This document shows positions 2,640-55,760 of a stretch of DNA of 64,000 nucleotides, piece after piece. A program made the translations under genes and the position numbers. Within the stretch, counting starts at the first letter, position 1, and every line of letters starts with the position of its first letter. The stretch lies in assembly GCA_031213475.1 (NCBI GenBank), contig JARUPZ010000025.1:9069544-9133543 (forward strand), read 5' to 3'. Origin of the DNA: Nereocystis luetkeana (lineage: Eukaryota > Sar > Phaeophyceae > Laminariales > Laminariaceae). The notes beneath the pieces are model-generated. The model saw only the letters and a program-made list of their open reading frames with translations. It did not search any database and was not told the DNA's origin.

Positions 2640-2812
2640 ATCATGAAGTGGGAATGATCTGTAGATGATCTATAGATAATTTGTACATGACCTGTAGATG
2701 ATATGTAGATGACCTGTAGATGATCTGTAGATGATATGTAGATGATATGTATATGACCTGTAGATGATCTGTAGATGATCTGTAGATGATCTGTAGATTA
2801 TCTGATGATCTG
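2640..2812 (-). repeat. GATGATCTGTA minisatellite inside an H1 element
   Basis: About 15 tandem 11-bp units of the type GATGATCTGTA. The array sits between GAAGTGGGAATGATCTGT on the left and GATCTGTCCGAGGCG on the right. The same two flanks are directly joined, without an array, in the right inverted arm at 47.45-47.49 kb. It is therefore a local expansion inside a dispersed element (H1). Confidence 0.7.
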
Positions 2813-2892
2813 TCCGAGGCGCGATAGGCCCCCCGGTGACCAACGAACAGCAACATGCTACCTTCATGCGGCCGGTCTTTTGAGTACGTCAA

Positions 2893-21802: not shown

Positions 21803-21900
21803 GTGAATAGAACCAAATATTGTTAGTTAAAAATAGCGAAATATATAGATTTTTGTTTCTACTGTAGGTCCTACCAGGATTTTAATATGGTCCCCCGTAA
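21803..21900. mobile_element. M1 MITE copy 9, left end missing
   Basis: Internal and right-end sequence are present (GTCCCCCGTAA at the right, then TA), but the left ~15 bp are replaced by the AAC tail of S3, which suggests that the retroposon inserted into, or deleted, the MITE end. Confidence 0.85.
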
Positions 21901-26045: not shown

Positions 26046-26344
26046 AAACGTTAAACAGGCAACTATTTATACCTGGTATAGAGTACTGCCGTAATTGGAA
26101 CCCAGAGCAAGTGCAGGAAAGTAGGAATCGGTCATAACGTGGGAACTCGATGCGATCTCGACGATGCCTCCAAGATCAATGGTGGAGTGTGTGCTCGTAC
26201 TGGTAAATCTGACTGGTTTACCTGGTACTGCTGTATTATATACCAGGTACCAGGTATCGTATACGTAAGGTGTTGCTTTTTTTTAGGTAAACAGAACAAC
26301 TATGGTACGCGGTATTTTGCCTCTTAACGAAAATCAGCGTTGTC

Positions 26345-28765: not shown

Positions 28766-29344
28766 TTGCGTGGTATACCGTATATCGCTGCGGGCGGTTT
28801 CGGCGGCGTGATACTGTTGGCTTGAGGTACTCGTAGTATCCCGTTTCGGGCCGGACTCCCGCTGCTGTGGGGACAACATACATACTCGAAACTAGAGTCA
28901 GACATGATATGTTTGTTTACAGCAGTGTACTTTCGACTAGGGAAAAGGTTAGGATAGATAGCTACCAGCTGGTAGATTGCATTGCCCACTGCAGTGCATA
29001 CTGTACACGTGGCAACGTAGTATCTCTGTGGCGTAGCTTTGTGACCACATAACTTGTTGTATCTCTTCTAGAATTGGAGAATCGGCACGGCTGACCCCGA
29101 CTAATACTGCAGTAGCAGTGCTTGCCCCCTGCGGGCTGCTTGGCGTAACTTAGCGAGCCCCGCACCGCACACTTGTCATGCGGAGGCCCCTCTACCATAA
29201 CCAGTGGGTGGTAATTAGTCTATTTAATACCAGGTACCTGGTAGGCTATTTCTTGCCCTCGGACGCGCTGGGTTTCGAATCTTGGTTGCATGGATTCCAA
29301 CACACGTGCCAGCCAATAAAACCGGCGACATGGCGGGAGTCGGC

Positions 29345-29612
29345 ACACTACTCCGCTTCGCCACCCAACTAACAATTACATGGTACACAGCAGAAGTAGC
29401 CGTCAACGCCGAGTCAGTAAGTTGGCTTACGTCGCCACCCAACGAACAACTATTAATAGCCGTCACCGTCAAGTCAGTAAGTTGGCATATCGCCACCCAA
29501 CCCACAATTAGCCGTCAACTCCAAGTCAGTTAGTTGGAATACATCGTCATCCAATTACTAGTCACAACAACTTGTAGCCGTCAACGGCAAGTCAGTTAGT
29601 TGACATTAATAT
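29345..29612 (+). repeat. Hairpin tandem array R1, cluster 2
   Basis: Five units of the R1 hairpin repeat (GCCGTCAACGTCAAGTCAGT, CATCGCCACCCAACTAACAA). One unit border carries CTATTAATAGCC and others CTATCGATAGCC or CAATTAGCC. Confidence 0.75.
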
Positions 29613-29628
29613 CATGGTACTATTAATA

Positions 29629-29754
29629 TTACGGGGGACCATAGTAAATATGATCAAATATTGTTAGTAAGTATAGGTAAATTTTATATACCAGGTAGGT
29701 TTTTGTGTGTATGATACCGTACCTGGTAGGTCCTATTTAATATGCCCCCCGTAA
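29629..29754. mobile_element. M1 MITE copy 13 with two CCWGG scars
   Basis: About 20 bp longer than canonical, mostly because of two 7-bp insertions: TACCAGGTA at 29689-29697 (canonical ATATAGGTTTTT) and TACCTGGTA at 29720-29728 (canonical CCGTAGGTCC). TA flanks are intact. Central to the scar analysis. Confidence 0.93.
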
Positions 29755-32330: not shown

Positions 32331-32442
32331 TTACGGGGGACCATAGTTAATAGGACCTGTGGCATACATAAAAACGTATATATGTACCCATTTCTACAAA
32401 CAATATTTGGTCTTATTAACTACCTGGTATGGTCCCTCGTAA
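32331..32442. mobile_element. M1 MITE copy 14 with CCTGG scar
   Basis: The right inverted repeat reads TTAACTACCTGGTATGGTCC instead of TTAACTATGGTCC: a clean 7-bp insertion with TA duplicated (32421-32429). Confidence 0.93.
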
Positions 32443-32655: not shown

Positions 32656-32768
32656 TTACGGGGGACCATAGTTAATACCATGGTAGGACCTATGGTATAC
32701 ATAAAAACCTTTATGTTTAACCATTTTTACTGACAATATTTGGTCCTATTAACTATGGTCCCCCGTAA
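32656..32768. mobile_element. M1 MITE copy 15 with CCATGG scar
   Basis: The left inverted repeat reads GTTAATACCATGGTAGGACC where canonical copies read GTTAATAGGACC: an 8-bp insertion, TA-CCATGG-TA (32676-32685). TA flanks intact. Confidence 0.92.
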
Positions 32769-33416: not shown

Positions 33417-33528
33417 CTACGGGGGGCCACATTAAATAGGACCTAATGTAACCACAAAAACCTACCAGGTAGATATTTCGCTATTTTTACGAACAATATT
33501 TGGTCCTATTTACTATGGCCCCCAATAA
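33417..33528. mobile_element. M1 MITE copy 16 with CCAGG scar
   Basis: CCTACCAGGTAGATATTTCGC (scar at 33463-33471) compares with CCTACATATTTCGC in copy 10. A TATTAATA scar touches its left flank. The following 33.53-34.9 kb holds no supported gene, only several scars. Confidence 0.9.
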
Positions 33529-43649: not shown

Positions 43650-44530
43650 AGAGCTAGTCGAACCGATACCTAGCCACCCGGTCTATAATTTCGTTTCTGC
43701 ATTCGTCGACAGCTGTATCAGAACAGCTGCCCCTCCCCCCCTCCCCTTGTCGCCGTTCTTGGCGTCCTCTGCTGCGTGGCGCAGCCGGCTCTTCTGTGCT
43801 TCGTCCCTGTGCCACCTCGCCATGAAGCAGTCCGCCGCTTCGACGACCCCCCCGTACCACTTCCCGCTCTTCTTAGCCGCCCTCGGCCATAACAACGTCT
43901 CTACTCCGAACAGCAGGGGGGAGCTTTCCGTGGACCCCTCGGTGGCTTGAAAAACCCTGAGGTCATCTGCTAGGCATTGGGCCCAGTTCTTTTCCGGTCG
44001 ACCTCGTCCCGGGTTCTCCCCACTCCCGAACATCACCCGATGGGTCAGCCGCTCATTGGTCGTCCGCTGTACGGCCCCCGCAAAGAGGAGGCGTCGTTTG
44101 CGGATGGTCGCCTCAACGCCCTCGCATTGTGCCTTTTTGAGGGCCTTGGCGTACGACATGAGGTGGTCAGAGTGCGTTGCCGGCGCTGGAAGCCAATGAT
44201 CCGTAGGAGGAGGAGTTTGTGGTGTGCCGTTCTGAGCTCAGCGAAGTGCTCCTGACCAAGAGTCCATGTCACGCACCCGTACAGCAGGGTCTCCATCACC
44301 TCGGCCTTTAGCATGCGCACTTTTAGGGTGAGCGGGGCATCCTCCATATCGTACAGCTCCCGTTTAAACCGATTGTAGCATGCCCCTGCGAGTCGGATCC
44401 GTCGCACGATCTCTGGCATAATGTCAGCGCTTGCGACGACAAGGCCGCCCAGGTACAGAAACTGCATCGTCTGCCTATACCTCTGTCCCGCTGCTTCGAT
44501 GACGGTGTTATTTACCTGCTGCTGGTGATA
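43650..44530 (-). pseudogene. LINE fragment: C-terminal part of a non-LTR reverse transcriptase ORF
   Basis: The minus strand encodes, in order, GQRYRQTMQFLYLGG, DIMPEIVRRIRLAGACYNRF, LKAEVMETLLYGCVTWTLGQ and LRTAHHKLLLLRIIGFQRRQ, then in other frames MSYAKALKKAQCEGVEATIR, LFAGAVQRTTNERLTHRVMF, WAQCLADDLRVFQATEGSTE and finally DRVARYRFD before a stop. The YLGG ... RI ... LLYG.W order is the typical region following the catalytic core in LINE reverse transcriptases. The catalytic YxDD region and everything 5' of it are missing (5' truncation near 44530, just beside a TACCTGGTA scar), and the reading frame shifts at least twice (about 44150 and in a G/C run near 43735). It is a dead copy, but peptide quality suggests it is fairly young. 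Confidence 0.85.
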
Positions 44531-45317
44531 TATACCTGGTATAGACTACCAGTAAGCTATACAAAGCATGCGCGTACAAAATAAATATACTTGCATACCA
44601 GTACATCAAAGTATGCGTGCAACCACTCACTATCTATACGCATAATACACAACATATTGTATACCAGTATACAACAGAAAAACACTTTCGTTCACAGGAT
44701 GTCTGCACTGCTGCTTTTAAATATAATAAGATGTATTGGAAAATACAAACATGCATGTGTACGAGGGAATAGAACAACAGAGTAGTGATAGTCATCGGTC
44801 GAGTCGAAAGTCTTGAGCCTTTAATTCTCGGCGGATCGGAGCCTGTGCATGAGGATGTGGGGATAAGATAGATATGCGGTACGTATTAAATAGTGATGAG
44901 GAAAGCTTCTGCAGAGGGCGTGATCGGGACGTAACGAAGGTGGCGTAGTACTATTAATAGCACCGTAACAGGGCTGTAATACCCGTCTGGATGCATCACA
45001 ATGCCATGTATCGTATGCAGACCCACAAGCAACCAAGCGCAGGTACGCTGCGAGGGGGCAGCGCTAAGCAGGACGGGTCAGCTGCCTCTCTATCTCTAGC
45101 CCCGCAGCAGTACTGTACATCCTGCATCCGTTCGTGCCTTGTCCGGGACAAAAGTGTCATTCGACGAACGCGGCCACAACCTACCGACTTTCACAGTGGA
45201 GACCTTTGGGCGCCTCGGGGTGTAGAGAGTACAGCAGTTTCGTTGACCAAGCTGTCGATGAGCGTCACTGGGCGAGCCGGGCGGGCCGAGGGGGAGGGGC
45301 CGGAGGAGGGGTATATT

Positions 45318-45487: not shown

Positions 45488-45528
45488 GGGGGGGTGCGAT
45501 GGCGAGAAAAGGGGTGGTGAAAGAACAC

Positions 45529-46082
45529 GTCACCAGCATCGTCGCCAACCCCGCCAAAACCATCATTCATGATTCCAGTCATGATTCTAACCCCGGGACG
45601 AACGACGGTGGGGAATGTTTTCATGCTTAGCAGGCTCGTTCACGGGTAAGGTTAAAACTCGCGGGTCGGGTCGGGTCGGGTCGGGTCGGGTCGGGTCGGG
45701 CCGGGTGGGATCGGGTTGGGCGGATCGGGTCACCTAACCCGACCCAGACCTGACGCGTGAGCTTTTGAAGACCTCCGGACCCTAACCCACCCGACTTGAC
45801 CTGTGAGTGGTTGAATACCTCCTGACCCGACCCGCGGGTGGGATCAGGAGCCGTGAACAGCCCCGATATTTTGGCTCCTTCGCAAGTGTCGAAAGCTGCA
45901 TTGACCAATAAGAAGGGGCGCCGGAGGTGGGCGTCCCAATCGGCACAGAGGAATACTCCCACGCCTCGGACAGATGATCGATTCCCACTTCAATCATGAT
46001 CTAGATCTTTCGGGGTAGATATATTCGTGATCTGTATGATCTGTACGACCTACCAGGTACGCAGTTCTTGCTGCCGGGTGGG
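45529..46082 (+). repeat. Left arm of a ~550-bp inverted repeat
   Basis: Reverse complement of 47371-47912 with only scattered differences. From outside in it holds CACCAGCATCGTCGCCAACC, (GGGTC)n sequence, GGATCAGGAGCCGTGAACAG, AATAAGAAGGGGCGCC and an H1 segment with GATCTGTATGATCTG, ending GCTGCCGGGTGGG. It carries TACCAGGTA at 46051-46059, which the other arm lacks. The two arms with their ~1.3-kb spacer could be one element with long terminal inverted repeats or an inverted duplication. Confidence 0.85.
46051..46059 (+). other. CCWGG scar with a perfect empty site
   Basis: GACCTACCAGGTACGCAG here versus GACCTACGCAG in the right arm (rc; TA at 47394-47395). The difference is exactly CCAGG plus one duplicated TA. 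Confidence 0.95.
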
Positions 46083-46084
46083 TG

Positions 46085-46320
46085 TTCCACACTTCAAGCT
46101 CCAGCATAGGCATCGCCAGGAAACAAGGCAGAGCAGGGGTGGGCGGGGAGGGTGCTAACCCACACACCCATGTCGTGAAGATGGAGCCTGGACGCAGCTT
46201 CGGACTTAAGAGTTGCTGGTAGATGAGCGTGTAATGAGAGAGAAGGGTGGGGGTACAGGCAGCAGCAGGTGGAGTAGATCGATGGTGAGTCGGAAGTGTT
46301 GTAGGCATAGAGTCGAGTTA
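46085..46320 (+). mobile_element. S1 retroposon 5'-region copy
   Basis: CTTCAAGCTCCAGCATAGGC, GATGGAGCCTGGACGCAGCT, GTGTAATGAGAGAGAAGG and GGTGGAGTAGATCGATGG match the 5' half of 472-806 in order. It fills the left part of the spacer between the inverted arms; a 3'-half fragment (CTGCACATTGTCAAACGGCA) follows at 46690-46725. Confidence 0.55.
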
Positions 46321-46430
46321 GACGCGTTGGCTGTACATATCTCCACAGGTGCCCCTAACCCTCGTGAGCCTTTCCGAGGGGGCAATTGATTATAACAAGT
46401 GACGGTTCCAGCTACGGTCACTGCGTGCTT

Positions 46431-46555
46431 GGGGGGCGATACTGATATTAATAAGGGTCCGAATTACAACGCAGGGAGCAGTACGACACGGGCGTGATAA
46501 GATCCTGTACCCATGCTGCTGGGCCCTCACTCTACTCGTAGACGGTGGATAACAC
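46431..46555 (+). repeat. Dispersed repeat shared with 33.27-33.40 kb
   Basis: Second copy of the GCTTGGGGGGCGATAC repeat; contains a TATTAATA scar that the 33.3-kb copy lacks at the equivalent place. Confidence 0.45.
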
Positions 46556-47044
46556 CAATGTTATGATTCTGGTCAAGCCACAATATCTTCCGATCCCCAA
46601 GGGATTGATCGGTTTCCTTGGTGCGCTCCTTGCGCGGTGGAAGTTCGTTTATGGCCTACTGATGTTGAAGCTTGTGTATGTGCCAGGTGCTTAGTATGCT
46701 GCACATTGTCAAACGGCAAACCTATCAAAGGCAAAGATGCATGCATGCGTCTTGGAAGAAGGGTTGTGCCTCCACCGCTCCCGTCAACTCGAGGAATATC
46801 TCGTGCGCCCACTGAGCGCCGTTGCCTGCTCTCCGGCATGCTTCGAGAGGCGAATTCGTATCCAGCACCCGCTCAAGGTGGCTTAAACTCCGTCTGAGGA
46901 TTCAATACGGACCAGGGCCGCCGCTTGCATGTTCGGCATGTATACATGGTACACACGGATTCCCTGAGTTCCGCAGCTTCAGACTCGGTTCCATTCCGCA
47001 AGAGGTATACTGGGTATGTCCAACATGAGGTCATATAAAACTCG

Positions 47045-47118
47045 TAGTACGCACGGTCGAAGTATTACACACAGCTTGCAAGGACAAGTTTCGACGAAAT
47101 CCTCGATCTCACTGCTGA
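47045..47118 (+). repeat. F1 dispersed ~80-bp repeat
   Basis: GTACGCACGGTCGAAGTATT to TTTCGACGAAATCCTCGATC; lies within the spacer of the inverted repeat. Confidence 0.6.
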
Positions 47119-47370
47119 CGTTTTGCATTTTATTTTGTATAAAATGCATCCGCGAGACAGCGCGGTAGAGGGTCTGCGCCCTCATCCCTCACTACCCCCA
47201 CGGCACGCTCAAGCACTCATAAGTATGAACACGTCCGACAGATCACGACGGTAGATCGTGTAGATCCTAGCCTAACGTCATGATGCGTTATGCAGTACCT
47301 GTACAGTACAGATCAGAAATGCGCTAGACAACCCAAGCAACATGTGCTAGATCATGCAGAATGTACATCT

Positions 47371-47912
47371 CCCACCCGGCAGCAAGAACTGCGTAGGTCG
47401 TACAGATCATACAGATCACGAATATATCTACCCCGAAAGATCCAGATCATGATTGAAGTGGGATTCGATTATCTGTCCGAGGCGTGGGAGTATTCCTCTG
47501 AGCCGATTGGGACGCCCACCATCGGCGCCCCTTCTTATTGGTCAGTGCAGCTGTCGACACTTGCGAAGGAGTCAAAATATCGGGGATGTTCACGGCTCCT
47601 GATCCCACCCGCGGGTCGGGTCAGGAGGTCTTCAACAACTCACAGGTCAAGTCGGGTGGGGTAGGGTCGGGAGGTCTTCAAAAGCTCACGTGTCAGGTCT
47701 GGGCCGGGTTAGATGACCCGACCCGCCCAGCCCGACCCGACCCGACCCGACCCGACCCGACCCGACCCGACCCGCGAGTTTTAACCTTACCCGTGAACGA
47801 GCCTGCTAAAGCATGAAAGCATTCCCTACCGTCGTTCGTCTCGGGGTTAGAATCATGAATGGAATCATGAATGATGGTTTTTGCGGGGTTGCCGACGATG
47901 CTGGTGTCGTCA
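47371..47912 (-). repeat. Right arm of the ~550-bp inverted repeat
   Basis: See the left arm. This arm has a longer CCCGA array (about 47726-47775) and lacks the CCAGG scar. A plus-strand frame of 124 codons crosses the arm, but the equivalent on the other arm is also only a partial frame, so no gene is called. Confidence 0.85.
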
Positions 47913-53254: not shown

Positions 53255-53545
53255 GCAGATGATCGATTCCCACTTGAAACATCTAGATATTTCAGGGCAG
53301 ATATATTCCTGATATGTATGATCTGTATGACCTGTATGATATGTATGATATATATGATATGTATGATCTGTATGATCTACATGAGCTGTATGATCTGTAT
53401 GATCTGTATGATCTGTATTATCTGTATGATATGTATGGTCTGTATGATCTAGCTCATGTTGCCGGGTGGGAGCCGTACTCGTCGTATAAACTGCATGATC
53501 TAGGACACGTTTCCTGTGTTTGATCTGTACTGTACAAATCCAGCA
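53255..53545 (+). repeat. H1 element with GTATGATCT minisatellite
   Basis: GATGATCGATTCCCACTTGA, TTTCAGGGCAGATATATTCC, then about 16 units of ATCTGTATG type (53305-53455), then ATCTAGCTCATGTTGCCGGG. In the inverted arms (46.0 and 47.4 kb) the same flanks enclose only two to three units. Confidence 0.78.
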
Positions 53546-55083: not shown

Positions 55084-55202
55084 TTACGGGGGACCATAAT
55101 AAATGCCTGGTAGGATCAAATATTGTAGGTAAAATTATCCAAATATATACCTGGTAGGTTTTTGTGTGTACCGTAGGTCCTATTTAGTATGGTCCCCCGT
55201 AA
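55084..55202. mobile_element. M1 MITE copy 20 with two CCWGG scars
   Basis: AAATGCCTGGTAGGATC (55104-55112, first TA decayed to TG; canonical AAATAGGACC) and ATATACCTGGTAGGTTTTT (55148-55156), the latter at the same internal TA as in copy 13. TA flanks intact. Confidence 0.92.
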
Positions 55203-55513: not shown

Positions 55514-55760
55514 GGACAGATCATCGACTCCGACTATTAATACACTTCTATTACCTGGTATTCGTCATGCTCTAGATATTTCCCGGTAAGATATTCTTCA
55601 GGCAAGATATTTTTCCGGTAAGATATATTCCGGGAAGAGATATTCCTGATCTGTATGATCTGTATGATCTGTACGATCTGTACGATCTGTATGATCTAGC
55701 TCATGCTGCCGGGTGGGAGCTGGATTTCCTGCGCGATCTACAGTAGGGCATGCTCCCTGG
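55514..55760 (+). repeat. H1 element with GTATGATCT minisatellite
   Basis: CTCGGACAGATCATCGACTC, repeated GGTAAGATATATTCC units (55583-55645), then about eight units of GATCTGTATGATCTG, then AGCTCATGCTGCCGGGTGGG. Confidence 0.72.

Follow-up and report, generated by a model that had tools for sequence, protein, structure and literature searches.

The window is the whole stretch of 64,000 nucleotides analysed here (C25:9069544-9133543) from the Nereocystis luetkeana assembly, which comprises 465,085,209 bases in 1,987 contigs. A long inverted repeat spans positions 45527-47910 of the window, and its arms are 92% identical over 557 aligned columns. The left arm carries the word TACCAGGTA, whereas only one TA occupies the corresponding place in the right arm. 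The features concerned are as follows.

45527 to about 46090, plus strand: left arm of the long inverted repeat, hosting the TACCAGGTA site
46051-46059, plus strand: filled site TACCAGGTA, a 7-bp gain in the left arm (arm alignment and paralogs)
About 47362 to 47910, minus strand: right arm of the long inverted repeat
47394-47395, no strand assigned: empty site, a single TA in the right arm (arm alignment)

When the arms were aligned, GACCTACCAGGTACGCAG faced GACC-------TACGCAG, with one 7-base gap and identical bases adjoining it. This alignment bears out the proposal of the earlier note that the two arms form a filled and empty pair, differing by CCAGG plus one TA at a TA. Elsewhere the arms show substitutions, a gap of one base and another of ten, the last lying in the CGGGT tandem arrays that both arms contain (45662-45731 and 47715-47774).

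Tandem arrays of TGATCTGTA-like units were seen elsewhere in the window (2654-2813, 53310-53450 and 55647-55697), and a TGATCTGTA-like word also adjoins the TACCAGGTA site at 46051. On the minus strand, a frame at 44048-44545 has 470 database relatives, and PF00078 (reverse transcriptase) is present in 3 of the 120 listed; this frame is perhaps what remains of a retroelement. Pfam queries on eight frames of the window gave nothing above the cut-off.

Frequency of the word and its filled and empty copies

TACCAGGTA is the reverse complement of TACCTGGTA, and A or T at the centre therefore reflects strand only. The treatment of the two centres as separate motifs was accordingly dropped, and the word is written TACCWGGTA or TACC(A/T)GGTA. 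The window contains 42 such words, against a mean of 0.42 and a maximum of 2 in 100 shuffles, in agreement with the earlier statement that the motif is frequent there. Across the 465-Mb assembly, 182,395 were counted, or about one per 2.5 kb, compared with 1,744 for the reversed word. When all words of the form TA-five bases-TA were ranked over 288 kb, TACCWGGTA came first with 121 and the runner-up reached 24. This ranking took in the overlapping loci L005 and L006, which were left out of the gap, aligned-copy, target-preference and decay counts given below, of the searches for words following TACC and for a second scar, and of one of two paired-end scans; the other paired-end scan kept them.

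Comparison with paralogous copies over 345 kb, which the earlier note had proposed as a check, yielded ten exact sites with a clean gap, eight of them of 7 bp and two of 4 bp. The paralog alignments at the eight 7-bp sites showed a gap of 7 bp in 78 cases and of 8 bp in one. A view of all aligned copies covered 16 of the 115 exact sites. TA was the commonest state at six, each with several copies, and the site at 46051 showed TA with a shifted gap; at five sites the one available copy had a different string, and at four no copy passed the filter.

Larger numbers were obtained at one TA within an abundant short element, the nine bases preceding this TA and the seven following it being kept constant except at a single A/G position. 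Across the assembly, 3,104 copies of this fixed-flank TA were empty and 485 carried exactly TACC(A/T)GG in addition, whereas the reversed patterns gave 0 in both classes. The filled share of these two classes, 485 of 3,589 (13.5%), is not typical, since this TA was picked because several filled copies had already been seen there; the overall scale is given by 115 exact sites against 16,119 TAs. The gain is thus one of 7 bp that uses and duplicates a TA, and the empty state is the commoner wherever it could be counted. An insertion or excision event with duplication of a TA target, as originally suggested from the two arms, is supported by the fixed-flank counts, by the six several-copy sites at which TA prevails and by the symmetric target preference described below.

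Further sites in the window, including decayed and variant forms, are listed here; they are termed scars in keeping with the interpretation developed below.

32421-32429, plus strand: TACCTGGTA within one TTACGGGGG short-element copy; of 21 aligned copies, 16 have TA
33463-33471, plus strand: TACCAGGTA at the much-used TA (ACAAAAACC-TA) of the TTACGGGGG short-element family
55148-55156, plus strand: TACCTGGTA at the ACAAAAACC-TA of another short-element copy, opposite strand
29689-29697, plus strand: TACCAGGTA at the ACAAAAACC-TA of another short-element copy, opposite strand
32676-32685, plus strand: TACCATGGTA, a variant gain of 8 bp where 25 alignments show TA
21872-21880, plus strand: decayed scar (TACCAGG, then AT), a 7-bp gain against empty paralogs
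55104-55112, minus strand: decayed scar TACCAGGCA, a 7-bp gain
26241-26256, plus strand: two scars with one common TA, TACCAGGTACCAGGTA
29228-29243, plus strand: two scars with one common TA, TACCAGGTACCTGGTA

Related gains, target preference and apparent decay

A family of related gains was found at the fixed-flank TA. When every gain of 1-30 nt plus TA was collected there, 898 places were obtained, 485 of which held the canonical scar. Among the 100 of these 898 that were listed, 55 gains were of 7 bp, 12 of 6 bp and 7 of 8 bp, and the remainder ranged from 3 to 30 bp. Sixty-eight of the 100 could be written as one initial piece of CCAG followed by one terminal piece of CTGG, namely CCAGG (35), CCTGG (17), CCGG (5), CCAGGG (4), CTGG (3), and C, CCA, CCAG and CCCTGG (1 each). 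The remaining 32 comprised scar rows, TA-repeat slippage, substituted scars and non-fitting strings, the latter including CCAGGGG twice, CTTCGAAG, CGGG, CAGG and others. Several related forms that can be built from two ends are present at one site, with 68 of the 100 listed fitting and 32 not; the fitted pieces would be the ends of an element that is itself postulated.

Alternatively, the minor forms built from two ends might be derived from the canonical scar by loss or gain of one base. Of the same 100, 15 were one-indel forms (CCGG 5, CCAGGG 4, CTGG 3, and CCAG, CAGG and CCCTGG 1 each), as against three one-substitution forms (CCCGG, CGTGG and CCACG). Ordinary sequence decay yields mostly substitutions, and most of the 15 therefore look like other joins of the two ends. 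In a second listing, of 100 among 596 places at the fixed-flank TA with most canonical fills left out, CCGG occurred 10 times, CCAGGG nine times, CCAG six times, and CCCTGG, CCATGG and CCTTGG once each, beside 16 scar rows, 26 canonical scars next to a flank variant and 30 others. A hand count of 100 listed canonical places, read in one orientation of the host element, gave 64 CCAGG and 36 CCTGG, so that the centre base is not distributed 50:50.

Neighbouring pairs of scars at 7-bp spacing were found five times. Identical doubles of rare forms were also present (CCGG with CCGG, and CCCTGG with CCCTGG), which suggests tandem copying for some scar rows. The much-used TA also bears gains of different sequence, CTTCGAAG and a form with CTTCG (C2:7618700-7618727 and C2:4828533-4828561), which are possibly the scar of yet another element.

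Filled TAs favoured A or T (W) at the seventh base to the left and A at the sixth, with the mirror image on the right, giving W-A-N5-TA-N5-T-W. Both sides fitted at 32 of the 115 sites, compared with 429 of the 16,119 TAs (2.7%). With sites that have a CCWGG neighbour left out, both sides still fitted at 22 of 99 (binomial p = 2e-14), and the target preference is thus symmetric. The variant scars share it: at least one side fitted in 9 of 11 cases of TACCGGTA, 18 of 30 of TACCAGTA, 6 of 11 of TACCAGGGTA and 3 of 4 of TACCATGGTA, against 26% of all TAs. The variants therefore lie at the same kind of target, although the preference cannot part other joins from decayed scars, because decayed scars keep their flanks.

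With the centre base excluded, 134 exact and 126 one-mismatch words were counted, whereas about 47 one-mismatch words would be expected from 40 permuted words. If this excess is due to decay, the scars would average about 7% substitutions and would therefore have gathered over a long time. The variant scar TACCAGGGTA was present at eight places within C1:1304138-1308379, seven of them 528 bp apart in a host tandem repeat; it has been copied with the tandem units, and scars are therefore inherited.

Search for a putative parent element and other elements of the genome

Scans of about 300 kb for paired ends starting with TACCA gave three pairs against five in the reversed control, and no family. 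Paired ends starting with TACCT, likewise over about 300 kb, gave four pairs against none in the control and again no family; three of the four were made by scars, and the fourth (L016:9230-9583) was a single pair. No parent was found among large insertions in the paralog alignments or among the words that follow TACC at preferred targets. Apart from two suspects discarded below, among the first places listed of 13,302 and 5,124 in the assembly where TACCAGG lacks a following TA, there was no repeated end with a varying upstream flank, nor was there a repeated end with varying flank among the non-scar fills in the 100 of 596 places listed at the fixed-flank TA.

Several candidates were discarded. 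The long inverted repeat was set aside as it showed, by eye, no TA duplication at its flanks. Similarity among copies of TACCAGGTGTATGAT, found at three of the listed places from the 5,124-place matches, stops after 17-21 bases. TACCCGACCCCTGATCC, at 4 of the 100 places listed out of 596, belongs to a longer repeat, because the flank before the TA is also common to its copies. Four copies of a GC-rich repeat (L042-L045, at C1:8881401, C2:19214671, C2:19244561 and C3:1059571) were also noted, in which ACAAAAACCTACCCGACCCC is a chance of sequence and not a scar.

Profile searches of the assembly for transposases gave no match to PF13358 (DDE_3), with 30 candidates scored, and none to PF01359 (Transposase_1), for which the control was likewise silent. 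PF03184 (DDE_1, pogo-like) gave 28 matches. Among the 11 of these inspected, in ten stretches, one family had clear ends, which start with CAG and not CCAG. Two complete elements of this family are given here.

L036, 936-3123: complete pogo-like element of 2,188 bp, TA-flanked, ends CAGTACCGGCC
L040, 1308-3285: complete pogo-like element of 1,978 bp, TA-flanked, ends CAGTACCGGCC, with a 542-codon frame matching DDE_1

The copy in L040 occupies the right-hand TA of a TACCAGGTA scar. Since its ends start with CAG rather than CCAG, the CAGTACCGGCC-ended family is at best a relative. By eye, two of its three insertion sites misfit W-A-N5-TA (the site in L037 being judged from one flank only). TACAGTA was considered as the scar of this CAG-ended family and set aside as unproven; it is without the preference (24 of 114 fitting on at least one side, 1 of 114 on both).

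The abundant TA-TTACGGGGG...CCCCCGTAA-TA element, about 110 bp long, was considered as parent of TACCWGGTA and rejected, as its ends fit a different scar. This second scar, TATTAATA, is a 6-base gain at TA found in at least three places (window 29451-29458, L017:4568 and L019:7096). It is matched by the ends of the TTACGGGGG element (TT...AA) and, by eye, by its neighbours (CTA...TAG). The pair formed by this element and its scar supports a general reading of such gains as excision products and provides a model of what the missing parent may look like. TA-flanked elements with inverted ends are thus also present in this genome.

Two other stretches deserve mention. Runs of an 8-bp unit, TACCCGGG, at L030:5524-5945 look like TA-CCCGGG-TA scars or slippage. 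At L031:1-6500, a near-perfect inverted duplication (99.5% over 1,888 bp) surrounds two DDE_1 matches, and these 6.5 kb hold no TACCWGGTA.

Excision as the probable origin of the sites

TACC(A/T)GGTA is best explained, at a probability of roughly two in three, as the excision scar of a TA-inserting, TA-duplicating cut-and-paste transposon of Tc1/mariner/pogo-like type with inverted ends 5'-CCAG. Because no un-excised parent was found in the samples and listings searched, the argument for a longer element draws on analogy and on the range of related scars. In the proposed mechanism, a transposon with 5'-CCAG ends would have entered a TA and later been excised. Cutting of the non-transferred strand four bases inside the element would leave each side of the break with at most four terminal bases of the element (CCAG). 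These single-stranded tails could then pair via CAG with a central A:A mismatch, and fill-in followed by mismatch repair to A or T would give TACC(A/T)GGTA. Other joins of the same tails would yield CCGG, CCAGGG, CCCTGG, CCATGG and CCAG or CTGG. A cut five bases inside ends reading CCAGG would likewise explain the main form.

Cut-and-paste transposition adds scars and not copies, and a few mobile copies, if active over a long time, could therefore account for scars in the hundreds of thousands with almost no parents remaining. A fuller version of the excision reading is offered only tentatively, with the odds somewhat against it. Here the element would live almost wholly as its own scars, 182,395 exact and others decayed, sustained by a very small number of copies that are hyper-mobile or regularly eliminated, with one dominant product of mismatch annealing and with scars outnumbering visible parents by orders of magnitude.

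The alternative that survives best, though we consider it rather unlikely, is direct insertion, in which an enzymatic activity or a repair pathway appends CCAGG and a TA at TA breaks, for instance by templated end repair after a transposase-like nick, and no longer element ever existed. This would accord with the failure to find a parent in the samples and listings searched, with the striking uniformity of the gain (485 of 898 at one TA) and with the lesser forms, if each is taken to be one inserted unit that lost or gained a base. It is harder to reconcile with the excess of indel-like over substituted forms, 15 to 3 among the 100 listed, and with the mirror-symmetric forms (CCAGGG and CCCTGG, CCAG and CTGG), which would be predicted for two retained ends but not for a single template. 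The observed symmetry at the target, moreover, resembles the preference of a transposase dimer.

Regular removal, by which parents would be eliminated in each generation or tissue so that the assembly shows scars only, appears improbable. The model for it is the internal eliminated sequences of ciliates, which are TA-bounded, very numerous per genome and precisely excised in the somatic nucleus. Very many scars with no visible parent in the samples would be expected under such a process, but here any excision would be imprecise, with scars left behind. They are also inherited, as the variant scar travelling in tandem units on C1 indicates, and seem to decay, given 126 one-mismatch words where about 47 were expected beside 134 exact ones.

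A selected functional motif, such as the site of a palindrome-reading protein, would suit a frequent near-palindrome and is nonetheless very improbable for a 7-bp gain that some repeat copies have and others lack, that occurs at 182,395 places and that apparently decays. Replication slippage or tandem duplication may add to the scar rows, with their identical units and five neighbour pairs, but is scarcely credible as the maker of the copies, as most listed gains at the tested TA are single units between fixed flanks that offer no CCAGG to duplicate.

Under the preferred reading of excision scars, one of the closest likenesses is to Sleeping Beauty, whose footprint is TAC(A/T)GTA, the central A/T arising from an A:A mismatch. 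Shared with Sleeping Beauty and Tc1 are the TA target and its duplication, a short scar of element ends and the A/T centre. The present scars differ in having five nucleotides between the TAs instead of three and predicted CCAG ends instead of CAG, the proposed rule being theirs plus one C; also, no DDE_3 match was found in this assembly. Own-genome pogo-like (DDE_1) elements are likewise TA-flanked, with paired ends and a transposase frame, but their ends are CAGTACCGGCC. As no transposase or element that matches was seen, the putative element was assigned to neither Tc1/mariner nor pogo.

Work on Sleeping Beauty and mariner excision describes 3-nt tails and footprints equal to the tails (PMC7827188). 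Known Tc1/mariner footprints are put at 2-4 bp in another account (PMC7913693), shorter than the scars here. The same account gives ATATATAT around the TA as the target preference of ZB and Sleeping Beauty (PMC7913693), in contrast to the preference 6-7 bp from the TA observed here. For the Stowaway MITEs of grasses, footprints are reported that lie between TAs and combine 2-4 bp from one end with 1-2 bp from the other; several occurred at one site, and a new insertion had taken the TA of an earlier footprint (PMC1925063). In these two-ended footprints and in the re-use of TA, Stowaway resembles the present case, and by analogy such re-use would fit the scar rows. It differs in that a few footprints are described at one gene and the elements persist in some species (PMC1925063), whereas here there are 182,395 exact scars and no parent seen in the samples.

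Excision footprints at TA are thus already known; the number and uniformity of those described here, without a visible parent, are unusual. Besides the count and the absence of a visible parent, this case stands apart in the five bases between the TAs and in a target preference that lies 6-7 bases away. A literature search for the word and related footprints found no report of a TACC(A/T)GGTA scar, which does not prove that none exists. In the published footprint work that was found, the element was known and loci or assays were studied singly. In the present genome, the scars by themselves would constitute a genome-wide record of an element's travels, of the probable cutting of its ends and of the joining of the breaks, and the predicted 5'-CCAG ends make the parent a defined search target. 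As a 7-bp gain shifts any reading frame that it enters, the scars would be a standing source of mutation, and their decay could show whether an element that does not gain copies can shape a genome.
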